Positions 5,715 through 11,065 of a DNA stretch of 64,000 nucleotides are shown in pieces. Under the pieces are notes generated by a model. That model was given only the letters and a program-made list of their open reading frames with translations. It had not been told where the DNA came from and did no database searches. Position 1 is the stretch's first letter; each line of letters begins with the position of its first letter. Location of the stretch: contig NZ_FODZ01000003.1 in NCBI RefSeq assembly GCF_900110505.1, positions 167,062 through 231,061 on the forward strand, in the 5' to 3' direction. This DNA comes from Luteibacter sp. UNC138MFCol5.1 (GTDB lineage: Bacteria; Pseudomonadota; Gammaproteobacteria; Xanthomonadales; Rhodanobacteraceae). A program made the translations under genes and the position numbers.

Positions 5715-6344
5715 TCAGGCGCGGATCAGGCCGCGCTCCTGCGCCATCCGGTACAGATCCAGCTCCGACCCGGCGTTGAGCTTGTTCATCACCGCCGCAC
5801 GGTGGATGTAGATCGTCTTCTGGCCGATCCCGAGTTCGGCCGCCACCTGCTTCGGCGCGCGGCCGGCCGCCAGCAGCAGGAACACCTCGCGCTCGCGCGC
5901 CGTGAGCCGGTTGAACGGATCGAGGTCGGCGGTGGTGCGGCCCGAACGACGCTCCCGCAGGTCCGAACTCAGGTACTGATCGCCCCCGAGCACCGAGCGT
6001 ACGGCCGCCACGAGTTCCTCCGGCGCGACGCCCTTGGTCACGTAACCGCGCGCGCCGCGACGCAAGGCCTCGGACACGTAAGGCTCGCCGTCGTGCATGC
6101 TCAGCACGACGATCTTCATGCCCGGCGCGATGCTGCCCAGATGCTCGATCAGCGGGAGGCCGCTGCCGTCCGGCAACGAGAGATCCACCGCGACCAGATC
6201 CGGCCGGTGCTGGGTGACCGCGTCGACCGCCTCGTCGGCGTTGCGGGCTTCGGCGACGACGTCCAGATCGGGTTCCAGCTCGATGAGCCGCTTGAAACCC
6301 TCTCGAACGATGGCATGGTCATCTACAAGGACGATTCTTGGCAT
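5715..6344 (-). CDS. NarL/UhpA-family response regulator
   Basis: Transcription factor of a two-component system. The receiver domain has the acidic pair at residues 8-9, phospho-acceptor Asp54 in VAVDLSLPDGSG and the conserved Lys in GYVTKG near residue 105. The C-terminal LuxR-type HTH reads LTAREREVFLLLAAGRAPKQ and continues to QKTIYIHRAAVMNKL. 209 residues. It is divergent from the sensor kinase at 6432, and both resemble UhpA/UhpB. No UhpC or UhpT gene lies nearby, so the target is unknown. Confidence 0.9.
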   Translation of the reverse strand: MPRIVLVDDHAIVREGFKRLIELEPDLDVVAEARNADEAVDAVTQHRPDLVAVDLSLPDGSGLPLIEHLGSIAPGMKIVVLSMHDGEPYVSEALRRGARGYVTKGVAPEELVAAVRSVLGGDQYLSSDLRERRSGRTTADLDPFNRLTAREREVFLLLAAGRAPKQVAAELGIGQKTIYIHRAAVMNKLNAGSELDLYRMAQERGLIRA

Positions 6345-6431: not shown

Positions 6432-8051
6432 ATGCGCTTACTCGGCCCCTCCCGCTTCGCCGGCCCCCTCTTCGCCATCGCCTATGCGCTCGCCTGGGTG
6501 ATGCTCTGGCCGACCGAGCAGCCCTACTGGGTGCTGCCGTTCGGCCTTCGCTTCGGCGCCCTGCTGCTGATGCGCACGCGGGACTGGTTCTGGATCCTCG
6601 GCGCCGAGATGTTCGCCAGCGCGTTCTGCGAATGGCGCAGCGGCCTGCCCATCGGCGGCGCGGGTTTCGTGCTCGGCGACGCGCCGGAGCCGCTGATGGT
6701 GGCCGCCTGCCTCTGGCTGCTGCGGCGCGCCCACCTGCACGCCAGCCTCAACACCCCCGAGGACGTCGCGCGCCTGCTGCTCTCGGCGATGGTCACGGCC
6801 ACGGTCGCCACCGCGGGCAACGCCGCGATGATGGCCTCGATGCACCCGGCCGCCCCGGTGGAGATGCTCGGCACCACCTTCGGCAGCGACCTGCTCGGCG
6901 ACTATCTCGGCGTGCTGCTCGTCGTGCCGGTCATGGTGCTGGTGTTCCGCGAGCGGCCGACGCAGACGGCCATGGCGGAACTGCTGCTCGACGGCCTGCT
7001 GGTGATGCTGCCCTCGCTGGCGATCCTCATCACGCTGGCCGAGTATTCGCCGCAACCGCAGTTCGCCCGTGTGCTCTCGCTGGCCCCCGTGCTGTTCTTC
7101 GCCTTCCGTCACGGCTGGCGCGGCGCGGGCCTGGCGATGCTGATCACCAGCGTGGGCCTCAACGTCACCGAGGACATGATCGGCCGGGGCGCGCCCACGG
7201 CCGCCGCCCACCTGTTCCTCGCCGTGGCCGGCACCGGCACGCTGATGCTCGGCGCCGCCACCGACGCCCTCCGCCGCAGCAGCGAGCGCGTGGCCCAGCA
7301 GAACACCCACCTGGCCGCCGCCAACCAGCGCCTCGACCAGCTGGCGCGCCAGCTGCGCGATGCCGCGCGAGGCAACCTCCAGGCCGAGGAAAACCTGCGC
7401 AGACACATGGCGGCGGAGCTGCACGACGAGCTCGGCCAGAACCTCACCGCCATCCAGACCCATCTGAAGCTCGCGCAGAATCGCCTGGGCAACGCGGGCC
7501 TGGACGACATCGGCACGTCCATCAACGGCATCCTCGGCCATATGCGCCGGGCGCTCCACAAGATGCTCGACAGCCTGCGCCCCTCGGTGCTGGACGAGTT
7601 CGGCCTGCTGCGCGCGCTCGACGAGGGCCCGATCCGCGACATGCTCACCGCCGCAGGTATCCACTACGTGACCGACCTGCGCGGGGACCCCCGCCTGCTC
7701 GACGACGACACTCTCACGGCGATCTACCGTGTGGTCCAGGAGAGCGCGACGAACGTCGTCCGCCACTCGGGTGCGCGTCGGATGATGTTGCGCCTGCGCA
7801 TCGGGCTACGCGACAGCGGGCCCGTCGCCATCCTCGACATTCGTGACGACGGCGCAGGCCTTCCGTCAACGCCCCGACCCGTCAGAACCGATGGCGGAGG
7901 CCGGGGACTGCAGGGAATGAGCGACCGGATCACCGCCCTCGGCGGGCTGTTCAGAATCCGCCCGGAGCCCGTGGGGCTTCACCTGCGGGTGCTGCTGCGC
8001 AGCACAAGTATCGGTTCTGACATAGGAAATTTTCCGATACCGGGGGCATGA
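6432..8051 (+). CDS. UhpB-like sensor histidine kinase (MASE1 + HisKA_3 + HATPase)
   Basis: Membrane sensor kinase, the probable partner of the divergent regulator at 5715-6344. Residues 1 to about 280 form a MASE1-like membrane region with several hydrophobic helices. A short coiled coil leads to the HisKA_3 dimerisation domain with phospho-acceptor His331 in AAELHDELGQNLTAIQ. The ATPase domain shows the N box VVQESATNVVRHSG, the G1 box IRDDGAGLP and the G2 box GGGRGLQGMSDRI. 539 residues. The start codon is about 88 bases from the regulator's, so the promoters face away from each other in that gap. The signal is unknown. Confidence 0.9.
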   Translation: MRLLGPSRFAGPLFAIAYALAWVMLWPTEQPYWVLPFGLRFGALLLMRTRDWFWILGAEMFASAFCEWRSGLPIGGAGFVLGDAPEPLMVAACLWLLRRAHLHASLNTPEDVARLLLSAMVTATVATAGNAAMMASMHPAAPVEMLGTTFGSDLLGDYLGVLLVVPVMVLVFRERPTQTAMAELLLDGLLVMLPSLAILITLAEYSPQPQFARVLSLAPVLFFAFRHGWRGAGLAMLITSVGLNVTEDMIGRGAPTAAAHLFLAVAGTGTLMLGAATDALRRSSERVAQQNTHLAAANQRLDQLARQLRDAARGNLQAEENLRRHMAAELHDELGQNLTAIQTHLKLAQNRLGNAGLDDIGTSINGILGHMRRALHKMLDSLRPSVLDEFGLLRALDEGPIRDMLTAAGIHYVTDLRGDPRLLDDDTLTAIYRVVQESATNVVRHSGARRMMLRLRIGLRDSGPVAILDIRDDGAGLPSTPRPVRTDGGGRGLQGMSDRITALGGLFRIRPEPVGLHLRVLLRSTSIGSDIGNFPIPGA

Positions 8052-8078
8052 ACGCTTCGTTAGCATCCCATTATCGAT

Positions 8079-8272
8079 GTGGGGGAGCCGCCGTCGAGAG
8101 ACGGTGAGCCCAGGTCGGTCGTGGGGACGATCGGCCTGATGAGGCGACAGGATGTCGGCCTCGCCGGTGCGACATGGCACCCCGTGTACCAGCGAGCAAC
8201 TCGCGGTCCACGGGCCATGGAAACGCCGGATCAAGCCGCCGGTGGACAGGAGTCCACCGGCGGCGTTTTTAT
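8079..8272 (+). ncRNA. Candidate CsrA/RsmA-binding small RNA
   Basis: There is no convincing reading frame here, but the RNA folds into a row of strong hairpins: 8091-8104 with a GAGA tetraloop; 8113-8136, a fully paired 10-bp stem closing a GGGG loop; 8141-8162 with loop AGGAT; 8166-8181; 8181-8214 with an inner stem; then a terminator hairpin with loop AGGA. GGA triplets occur seven times (8084, 8125, 8150, 8219, 8228, 8244, 8249), three in or at hairpin loops. That is the hallmark of RsmX/Y/Z and CsrB-type sponges. It follows the sensor kinase gene by 27 bases, so it could also be a processed 3' product of that mRNA. A weak -10 CATTAT lies at 8069-8074. Confidence 0.6.
8235..8270 (+). terminator. 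Rho-independent terminator
   Basis: A perfect 13-bp stem (8235-8247 with 8252-8264) has a 4-base AGGA loop and is followed by TTTTT. It ends the candidate small RNA and/or the sensor kinase transcript. Confidence 0.9.
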
Positions 8273-8391: not shown

Positions 8392-8805
8392 TCAGCGCTT
8401 CTTCTTCGGCCGCACGTAGAGCACCAGGCTGTGATCCTCGATCACATACCCGTGCCGGTCGGCGATCTCGTGCTGGAGACGCTCGATCTCCTCGCTGATG
8501 AACTCGATCACCTTTCCGCTGTCCACGTCGATCATGTGGTCGTGGTGCTTGCCGCGGTCGAGCTCGTAAACGGCCTGCCCGCCCTCGAAGTTGTGCTTCA
8601 TGACGATGCCGGCGGCTTCGAACTGGGTCAGCACGCGGTACACGGTGGCCAGCCCGATGTCTTCCTGATGGGCGAGCAGCCGCTTGTAGATGTCTTCAGC
8701 CGTAAGGTGGGGCTGGTCGGCCTCCTCGAAGATCTGGAGGATGCGCATCCGCGGATGCGTGACTTTCAGGCCCGCCTTGCGGAGCTCTTTGGTTTCCTGG
8801 TCCAT
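8392..8805 (-). CDS. fur: Ferric uptake regulator Fur
   Basis: Iron-responsive repressor of iron-uptake genes; a cytosolic dimer. The winged helix includes LKVTHPRMRILQIFE and IGLATVYRVLTQFEAAGI; the metal-binding HHDHM motif and the C-terminal dimer domain follow. 137 residues. The usual CxxC after HHDH is replaced by DVDS, and the whole protein has no cysteine, so the structural Cys4 zinc site is absent. GAGGGG precedes the ATG. Divergent from bamE, the arrangement known as fur-omlA in Xanthomonas and Pseudomonas. Confidence 0.97.
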   Translation of the reverse strand: MDQETKELRKAGLKVTHPRMRILQIFEEADQPHLTAEDIYKRLLAHQEDIGLATVYRVLTQFEAAGIVMKHNFEGGQAVYELDRGKHHDHMIDVDSGKVIEFISEEIERLQHEIADRHGYVIEDHSLVLYVRPKKKR

Positions 8806-10049: not shown

Positions 10050-10129
10050 GTGAAGACCTCGTCTCATCTCGCCGGCGCATGGATACGCCGGGCTTGTATC
10101 AGGGACCCGATAGACCGATTTTAACGGAC

Positions 10130-10630
10130 ATGGCAAAACCGAAAGCAAAGGACACGGAAAAGGAAGGTCGCGGCACCATCGCGCTGAACAAGCGCGCGCG
10201 CCACGAATACCACATCGACCAGCGCTTCGAGGCCGGCATGGCCCTGCAGGGCTGGGAGCTGAAATCGCTGCGTGCCGGCCGGATCAACTTCGGCGAAGGC
10301 TGCTACGCGATCATCCAGCACGGCGAGGTGTTCCTCGTCGGCGCCCAGATCCCGCCGCTGATCAGCGCCTCCACCCACGTGGTGGCCAACGACCGGCGCA
10401 CGCGCAAGCTGCTGCTCCACCGCGAGGAGATCGACCGGCTGATCGGCGCCGTCGAGCGCAAGGGTTACACCCTGGTGCCGACCGCCCTCTACTGGAAGAA
10501 CAACAAGGTCAAATGCGAAATCGGCCTGGCCAAGGGCAAGCAGGATCACGACAAGCGCAACGCCGAGAAGGAGCGCGAGTGGGCCGTCGACAAGCAGCGC
10601 GTCATGCGCGCCCACAACAAGCTCGGCTGA
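10130..10630 (+). CDS. smpB: SsrA-binding protein SmpB
   Basis: Binds tmRNA and delivers it to stalled ribosomes in trans-translation. 166 residues: the OB-fold core has [20 protein letters not shown] and [12 protein letters not shown], and the tail [18 protein letters not shown] is the part that enters the mRNA channel. The ATG at 10130 matches the family start; upstream in-frame sequence does not. Its RNA partner ssrA begins 81 bases downstream. Confidence 0.98.

Positions 10631-10711: not shown

Positions 10712-11065
<354 letters not shown>

Follow-up and report, generated by a model that had tools for sequence, protein, structure and literature searches.

A conserved structured RNA behind a UhpB-like kinase gene in Luteibacter, probably a CsrA-sequestering RNA of Rhodanobacteraceae

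The window, a stretch of 64,000 nucleotides from Luteibacter sp. UNC138MFCol5.1, was analysed around an RNA-like stretch flanked by the end of a sensor kinase gene and by fur (8392-8805, minus strand). A response regulator gene lies on the other side of the kinase gene. The features of the locus are collected in Table 1. Elsewhere in the window, a tmRNA gene was observed at 10712-11065 (197 bits), just downstream of an ORF (10079-10630) that by eye looks like smpB.

Table 1 Features of the RNA locus (positions in the window).
Feature	Positions	Strand	Observation
NarL/LuxR-type response regulator, divergent from the kinase, proposed activator	5715-6344	-	
Sensor kinase, MASE1-HisKA_3-HATPase, UhpB-like	6432-8051	+	End of the ORF runs into the palindrome at this locus
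Palindrome TAGGAAATTTTCCGA (family form TAGGAAN3TTCNNA), proposed response-regulator operator	8023-8037	+	Site plus RNA motif at 148 of 156 loci
-10-like hexamer TAGCAT	8061-8066	+	TAnnnT 31 nt from palindrome centre at 116 of 119 unique loci
Proposed sRNA gene, about 198 nt	8073-8270	+	44-sequence alignment, covariation, covariance-model searches
5' GUGGGGGAG, GGA 8084-8086	8079-8087	+	Invariant in 44; UGG pairs with downstream CCG (consensus)
Hairpin H1, 7 bp, variable loop without GGA	8089-8106	+	5 of 7 pairs changed on both sides; loop identity 0.804
Hairpin H2, 12 bp, apex CGUGGGGACG, GGA 8125-8127	8111-8138	+	Apex invariant in 44; 9 of 12 pairs changed on both sides
Hairpin H3, loop CAGGAU, GGA 8150-8152	8141-8162	+	4 of 6 pairs changed on both sides
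Hairpin H4 GCGAGCAACUCGC, conserved apex without GGA	8192-8204	+	Alignment; motif in 80 of 103 unique RNAs
H5, intrinsic terminator, loop AGGA, GGA 8249-8251	8235-8270	+	Loop CAGGAG in 44 of 44

The proposed sRNA was predicted to fold at -119 kcal/mol, as compared with -83.9 ± 4.8 kcal/mol for dinucleotide shuffles (z -7.4), and none of the 200 shuffles equalled it. From the 5' end, H1, H2 and H3 are followed by a variable stretch capped by H4 and then by H5, whose 13-bp stem (8235-8264) precedes GTTTTT. An earlier note on this DNA had described five stable hairpins and a terminator in a range of 8079-8272 without a gene. The stable fold and the terminator were confirmed, whereas the hairpins number four besides the terminator, five in total. 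Structured RNA does occupy that range, but conservation begins further upstream, and the RNA most likely extends from 8073 to 8270, with a start that we infer near 8073 and an end near 8270 set by the T-run of the terminator. The promoter-like region at 8023-8072 belongs to the same feature. As to the absence of a gene, the homologues are 188-201 nt long and differ by single-base indels, so that the listed ORFs are not conserved; together with the compensatory changes among the homologues, these indels ruled out a protein-coding reading. A known RNA family was ruled out as well, since the Rfam search returned nothing at the gathering score and only weak matches far below it. The RsmX, RsmY, RsmZ, CsrB and CsrC families did not appear in the 8 hits obtained with E up to 10.

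Subsequently, the pairing was examined in an alignment of 44 distinct homologues. Changes on both sides were found in 25 of the 45 pairs, against 12.2 in shuffles, and none of 500 shuffles reached this number. The covariation was 0.370 as compared with 0.183 in shuffles, with 98.4% of the 1980 cells paired, and the signal collapsed when the pairing partners were shifted by 1-3 columns. Window positions 8073-8270 encode a conserved, covarying structured RNA. In its consensus fold, a conserved CCG after H3 pairs with the UGG of the invariant 5' GUGGGGGAG, enclosing H1-H3.

Stems vary more than the GGA loops. Identity per element, calculated over 23 rows (one Luteibacter row and 22 others), was 1.000 for the 5' GUGGGGGAG, the H2 apex CGUGGGGACG and the H5 loop AGGA, whereas it was 0.531 for the outer stem of H2 and 0.841-0.905 for the stem of H5. 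The H3 loop reached 0.917 against 0.752 for its stem. In H1, whose loop holds no GGA, stem and loop gave 0.822 and 0.804, respectively; the values for H4 (no GGA), the CGGAUC linker and the remainder were 0.940, 0.681 and 0.444. The usual A(N)GGA rule does not account for the invariant H2 apex, the 5' GUGGGGGAG or the H4 apex. The last of these, CGAGCAACUCG, is well kept despite having no GGA, and its role is unexplained.

We then counted the GGA motifs. There are seven, beginning at 8084, 8125, 8150, 8219, 8228, 8244 and 8249, and three of them lie in hairpin loops, exactly as the earlier note had stated. Their number is not enriched in the window RNA (7 against a mean of 6.2 in 300 shuffles, p 0.42); that of loop GGAs is modestly unusual (3 against 0.72, p 0.027). 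In the SELEX consensus for CsrA, RUACARGGAUGU, the ACA and the GGA show full conservation (PMC7652899), and ACAGGATGT at 8147-8155 is indeed one base short of ACARGGAUGU, which had also been claimed. Three loop GGAs were present in 42 of the 44 homologues and two in the other 2. Among 118 unique RNAs chosen by the 5' motif and the H2 apex, the terminator loop was CAGGAG in 112 and CA[AU]GGAG in 3; it was cut off at the locus end in 2 (L115, L160) and absent in 1 (L070). The H3 loop was read in 103 unique RNAs chosen by palindrome and H2 apex pattern, both of which are fixed by construction in this set, and was CAGGA in 92, CAAGGA in 4, CAGGG in 2, CAAGG in 1 and none of these in 4. The earlier note had proposed a covariance search over relatives and had named loss of the loop GGAs there as a possible refutation; the hairpins covary, and the loop GGAs are kept.

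A DNA search found the sRNA in 44 of 101 relatives. Half of these 44 belong to the genus itself, which is represented by 23 genomes, and the other 22 to further genera of the family; the only genus genome without a match, G007, is 80% complete. The covariance model built from these 44 sequences matched 47 of the 101 genomes. When 398 genomes of the order were searched with stricter filters, under which weak matches such as that of G028 in the 101-genome search were lost, the model matched 96 genomes in 15 of 98 genera and gave no match outside the single family Rhodanobacteraceae. The sRNA is conserved in many soil bacteria among the Rhodanobacteraceae but is not universal there, since both a model match and a kinase orthologue are missing from nine or more near-complete family genomes. 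A pattern scan of named genomes yielded 106 stretches, of which 100 matched the model above 70 bits (74 of 80 and 26 of 26). Most of these are labelled Luteibacter, Dyella, Rhodanobacter, Frateuria, Fulvimonas, Oleiagrimonas or Pinirhizobacter. The remaining six (three Streptomyces, one each from Chloroflexi, Dermatophilaceae and Alphaproteobacteria) had no model match and were regarded as chance. Two matching contigs with distant labels (L116, Thiobacillaceae; L156, Eremiobacteraeota) may be misbinned. Apparent second copies in G250 and G263 (27-30 bits) were rejected on inspection of the DNA, in which the matches end in ordinary terminators and no palindrome is present. The extra matches at 16-20 bits (9 and 6 rows) were set aside, most of them being antisense to the terminator or beside a true match.

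Upstream of the RNA, the palindrome and the hexamer form a promoter-like block. The 156 loci examined include several genomes twice and reduce to 119 unique loci, in 106 of which the palindrome contains TTCC. Eight of the 156 lack the palindrome form, comprising the six chance hits and L099 and L177, which carry TAAGAA variants. The position of TAnnnT differs at L042, L074 and L075, and a scan for consensus promoters reported none on the plus strand at the hexamer region. Since the spacing to TAnnnT is fixed, the palindrome centre would lie near -43, about 43 nt upstream of the predicted start. The distance from the palindrome centre to the RNA motif was 45-48 nt in the 103 unique RNAs. At 123 loci, in turn, the kinase stop and the palindrome were separated by -29 to +179 nt, negative values placing the palindrome inside the kinase ORF, and the two overlap at 63 of these loci. 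With positions this variable relative to the ORF, the conservation of the palindrome does not come from coding constraint. A transcript separate from the kinase mRNA is favoured by this promoter-like block, whose spacing is near-fixed wherever the kinase ORF ends.

We take this palindrome to resemble the boxes of NarL/FixJ-type regulators such as RcsB. Its stricter form, TAGGAANWTTTCC, occurs once in the genome and a looser form, TAGGAANNNTTCCNA, in three places; matches with at most one mismatch numbered 13, as compared with 11 for a reversed control pattern. Outside the window, two perfect TAGGAAN3TTCCTA palindromes lie 3.5 kb apart (L183 and L184; G000:C10:353538-353552 and 357103-357117). 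Both are apparently intergenic, one seemingly beside a TonB-dependent receptor-like gene, and no sRNA-like element was seen by eye behind them. It is possible that they are further targets of the same regulator. Between the regulator and kinase genes, the best match to an autoregulatory site had 5 mismatches, the same as in shuffles.

The linkage of the RNA to the two-component genes was then assessed. With a cut-off of more than 300 bits, which was our own choice, a kinase orthologue was found in 51 of the 101 genomes. The model matches 47 of these, and another 3 carry the palindrome and GGA-bearing DNA behind it, while none of the 50 genomes without the orthologue, the incomplete G007 among them, has a model match, these counts not being independent because the genomes are related. 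The exception is G057, whose kinase is 41% identical; no palindrome was found in the 520 nt read downstream of it, and a regulator match is absent on its fragment. All 21 loci tested have the kinase; 20 of them also have the regulator, 20 have Fur and 19 have RecN, the G057 fragment having the kinase only. The earlier note had called the system UhpAB-like, which is fair as a resemblance, but both proteins fall below the NCBIfam cut-offs.

Diverged members of the family were also inspected. In Oleiagrimonas and one other genus, the loops read ACAUGGAGU (L099), ACAAGGAGU (L093) or ACAAGGACGU (L073, L074), keeping ACA and GGA of the SELEX consensus, and L069 has CAUGGAG. The base inserted between ACA and GGA shifts the site towards the SELEX form ACARGGAUGU. 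Both L073 and L074 contain GGCACAAGGACGUGCC, in which AAGGAC folds as the loop of a hairpin closed by AC-GU. Their CA(N)GGA count exceeds that of shuffles (p 0.005), and loop GGAs on their own do not differ significantly from shuffles (p 0.07 and 0.08). The ends of these most diverged RNAs, L075 included, were set by eye, and no clear terminator was seen in L073 and L074, so that their 3' limits are uncertain. L075 gave p 0.005 for loop GGA and p 0.01 for CA(N)GGA. The better of the two counts beat shuffles in five of six diverged RNAs (L068, L069, L073, L074, L075), at uncorrected p values of 0.005-0.01. The weak case is L070 (G028), in which a single GGA lies in a loop (p 0.49), CA(N)GGA is absent and the terminator holds no GGA. 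A run of GGAs, GGAUGGAUGGAUGG, was noted in its linker, and its CsrA sites have perhaps shifted out of the loops. In three genomes (G023 and G048, which share a genus, and G046), a related kinase is present at 49-51% identity and there is no model match; the palindrome is retained behind the kinase and is followed by GGA-bearing hairpins. In our reading, CsrA sites probably turn over in the diverged members while the promoter stays fixed.

CsrA is encoded in 95 of 101 genomes searched in the order. The single match in the Luteibacter genome (G000) is a standard CsrA that is encoded elsewhere than the sRNA locus and aligns closely to solved CsrA-family proteins. The covarying RNA, the loop GGAs kept while stems change, the promoter-like block, the two-component linkage and the presence of a csrA gene favour CsrA sequestration. 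Taken together, these findings suggest that the locus probably specifies a free-standing CsrA/RsmA-sequestering RNA activated by the adjacent NarL-type regulator, with a logic like that of Gac/Rsm. The interpretation of the earlier note, a probable RsmA/CsrA sponge beside a two-component system, is supported in this respect. The UhpB-like kinase would phosphorylate the divergent regulator, which would then occupy the TAGGAAN3TTCNNA palindrome, immediately ahead of where the polymerase binds, and transcription would start near 8073. The hairpins would then present the loop GGAs of the H2 apex, H3 and the terminator, besides single-stranded GGAs, and the RNA would bind CsrA dimers and thereby free CsrA-repressed mRNAs. 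We infer transcription, CsrA binding, the identity of the activator, and the sign and targets of regulation. Several observations run counter to CsrA binding: the GGA count is no higher than composition gives, L070 has a single loop GGA, loop GGA alone misses significance in L073 and L074, the GGGGA of the H2 apex differs from the usual A(N)GGA, and the conservation of H4 and of the 5' end, for which CsrA binding gives no reason, is similar to that of the GGA loops. Moreover, the H5 stem has 13 pairs, as compared with at most 4 contiguous pairs in most SELEX ligands (PMC7652899). The occurrence of the palindrome class at two other places in the genome counts against the proposed activation.

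An unlikely alternative keeps CsrA sequestration and assigns activation to a GacA-like regulator encoded apart from the locus, or to some other factor, with the two-component system next door linked for a different reason. A GacA/UvrY-like protein is indeed encoded elsewhere (L195:2007-2660, containing G000:C11:460924-461559) and could activate the sRNA, although its 227 bits are below the equivalog cut-off of 280; the neighbouring regulator scored 131 bits against the same equivalog. Inspection by eye of the longer ORFs in 6 kb around the GacA-like gene showed no sensor kinase. The GacA box is TGTAAGN6CTTACA, and its best match upstream of the RNA (7950-8072) had 6 mismatches. Furthermore, GacA-like hits of 230-236 bits were also obtained in family genomes that the model does not match (G026, G030), and the RNA co-occurs with the neighbouring kinase, both of which speak against this alternative. 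Less probable still is a base-pairing sRNA whose G-rich and AGGAG loops would meet C-rich mRNA stretches, with or without Hfq, in place of CsrA binding. The invariant H2 apex GUGGGGAC, the 5' GUGGGGGAG and the well-kept H4 apex would suit seed loops; however, diverged loops mostly keep GGA, also in the form ACANGGA with an inserted base, which a seed would hardly tolerate. Finally, an element cut from, or stabilising, the 3' UTR of the kinase mRNA is very improbable: the kinase gene is co-oriented and immediately upstream, and RsmU of Xanthomonas is processed from a 3' UTR (PMC7694677), but the variable distance from the kinase stop to the palindrome, the near-constant spacing of the palindrome to the RNA and the single position of the hexamer argue against it.

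We found no description of this Rhodanobacteraceae RNA in the open-access literature searched. Known RNAs of the RsmX/RsmY/RsmZ and CsrB/CsrC type have loop GGAs, an intrinsic terminator, an upstream palindrome and a NarL/FixJ-type activator. The CsrA-sequestering RNA proposed here resembles them in its loop GGAs, its terminator, its promoter-like region with a palindrome and its proposed NarL/FixJ-type activator; it differs in matching none of these Rfam families and in that the proposed activator is UhpA/MctR-like and encoded next door, not GacA/UvrY. The MASE1-HisKA_3 kinase and NarL-type regulator are like those of UhpAB and MctR-type systems, whereas the scores below equivalog cut-offs, the divergent genes and an sRNA as the proposed target set the pair apart. 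In the literature searched, the sole RsmA-sequestering RNA of the order was RsmU of Xanthomonas campestris, which binds RsmA, is processed from the 3' UTR of comEA mRNA and is reported to be confined to Xanthomonas (PMC7694677). It shares with the present RNA the order and a place downstream of a coding gene, whereas a promoter-like region and another locus are found here.

Whether many Rhodanobacteraceae possess a self-contained Gac/Rsm counterpart, in which a UhpAB-like pair would have a CsrA-sequestering RNA as its main output and would have evolved separately from the GacA-driven RNAs, is in our view evenly balanced. The covariance model of the family makes the sRNA findable in genome annotation. 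If the proposed reading is true, CsrA in Luteibacter, Dyella and Rhodanobacter would gain a dedicated input signal through a cis-coupled, non-Gac two-component system, and the wiring of a NarL-type regulator to a CsrA sponge would appear to have arisen more than once.
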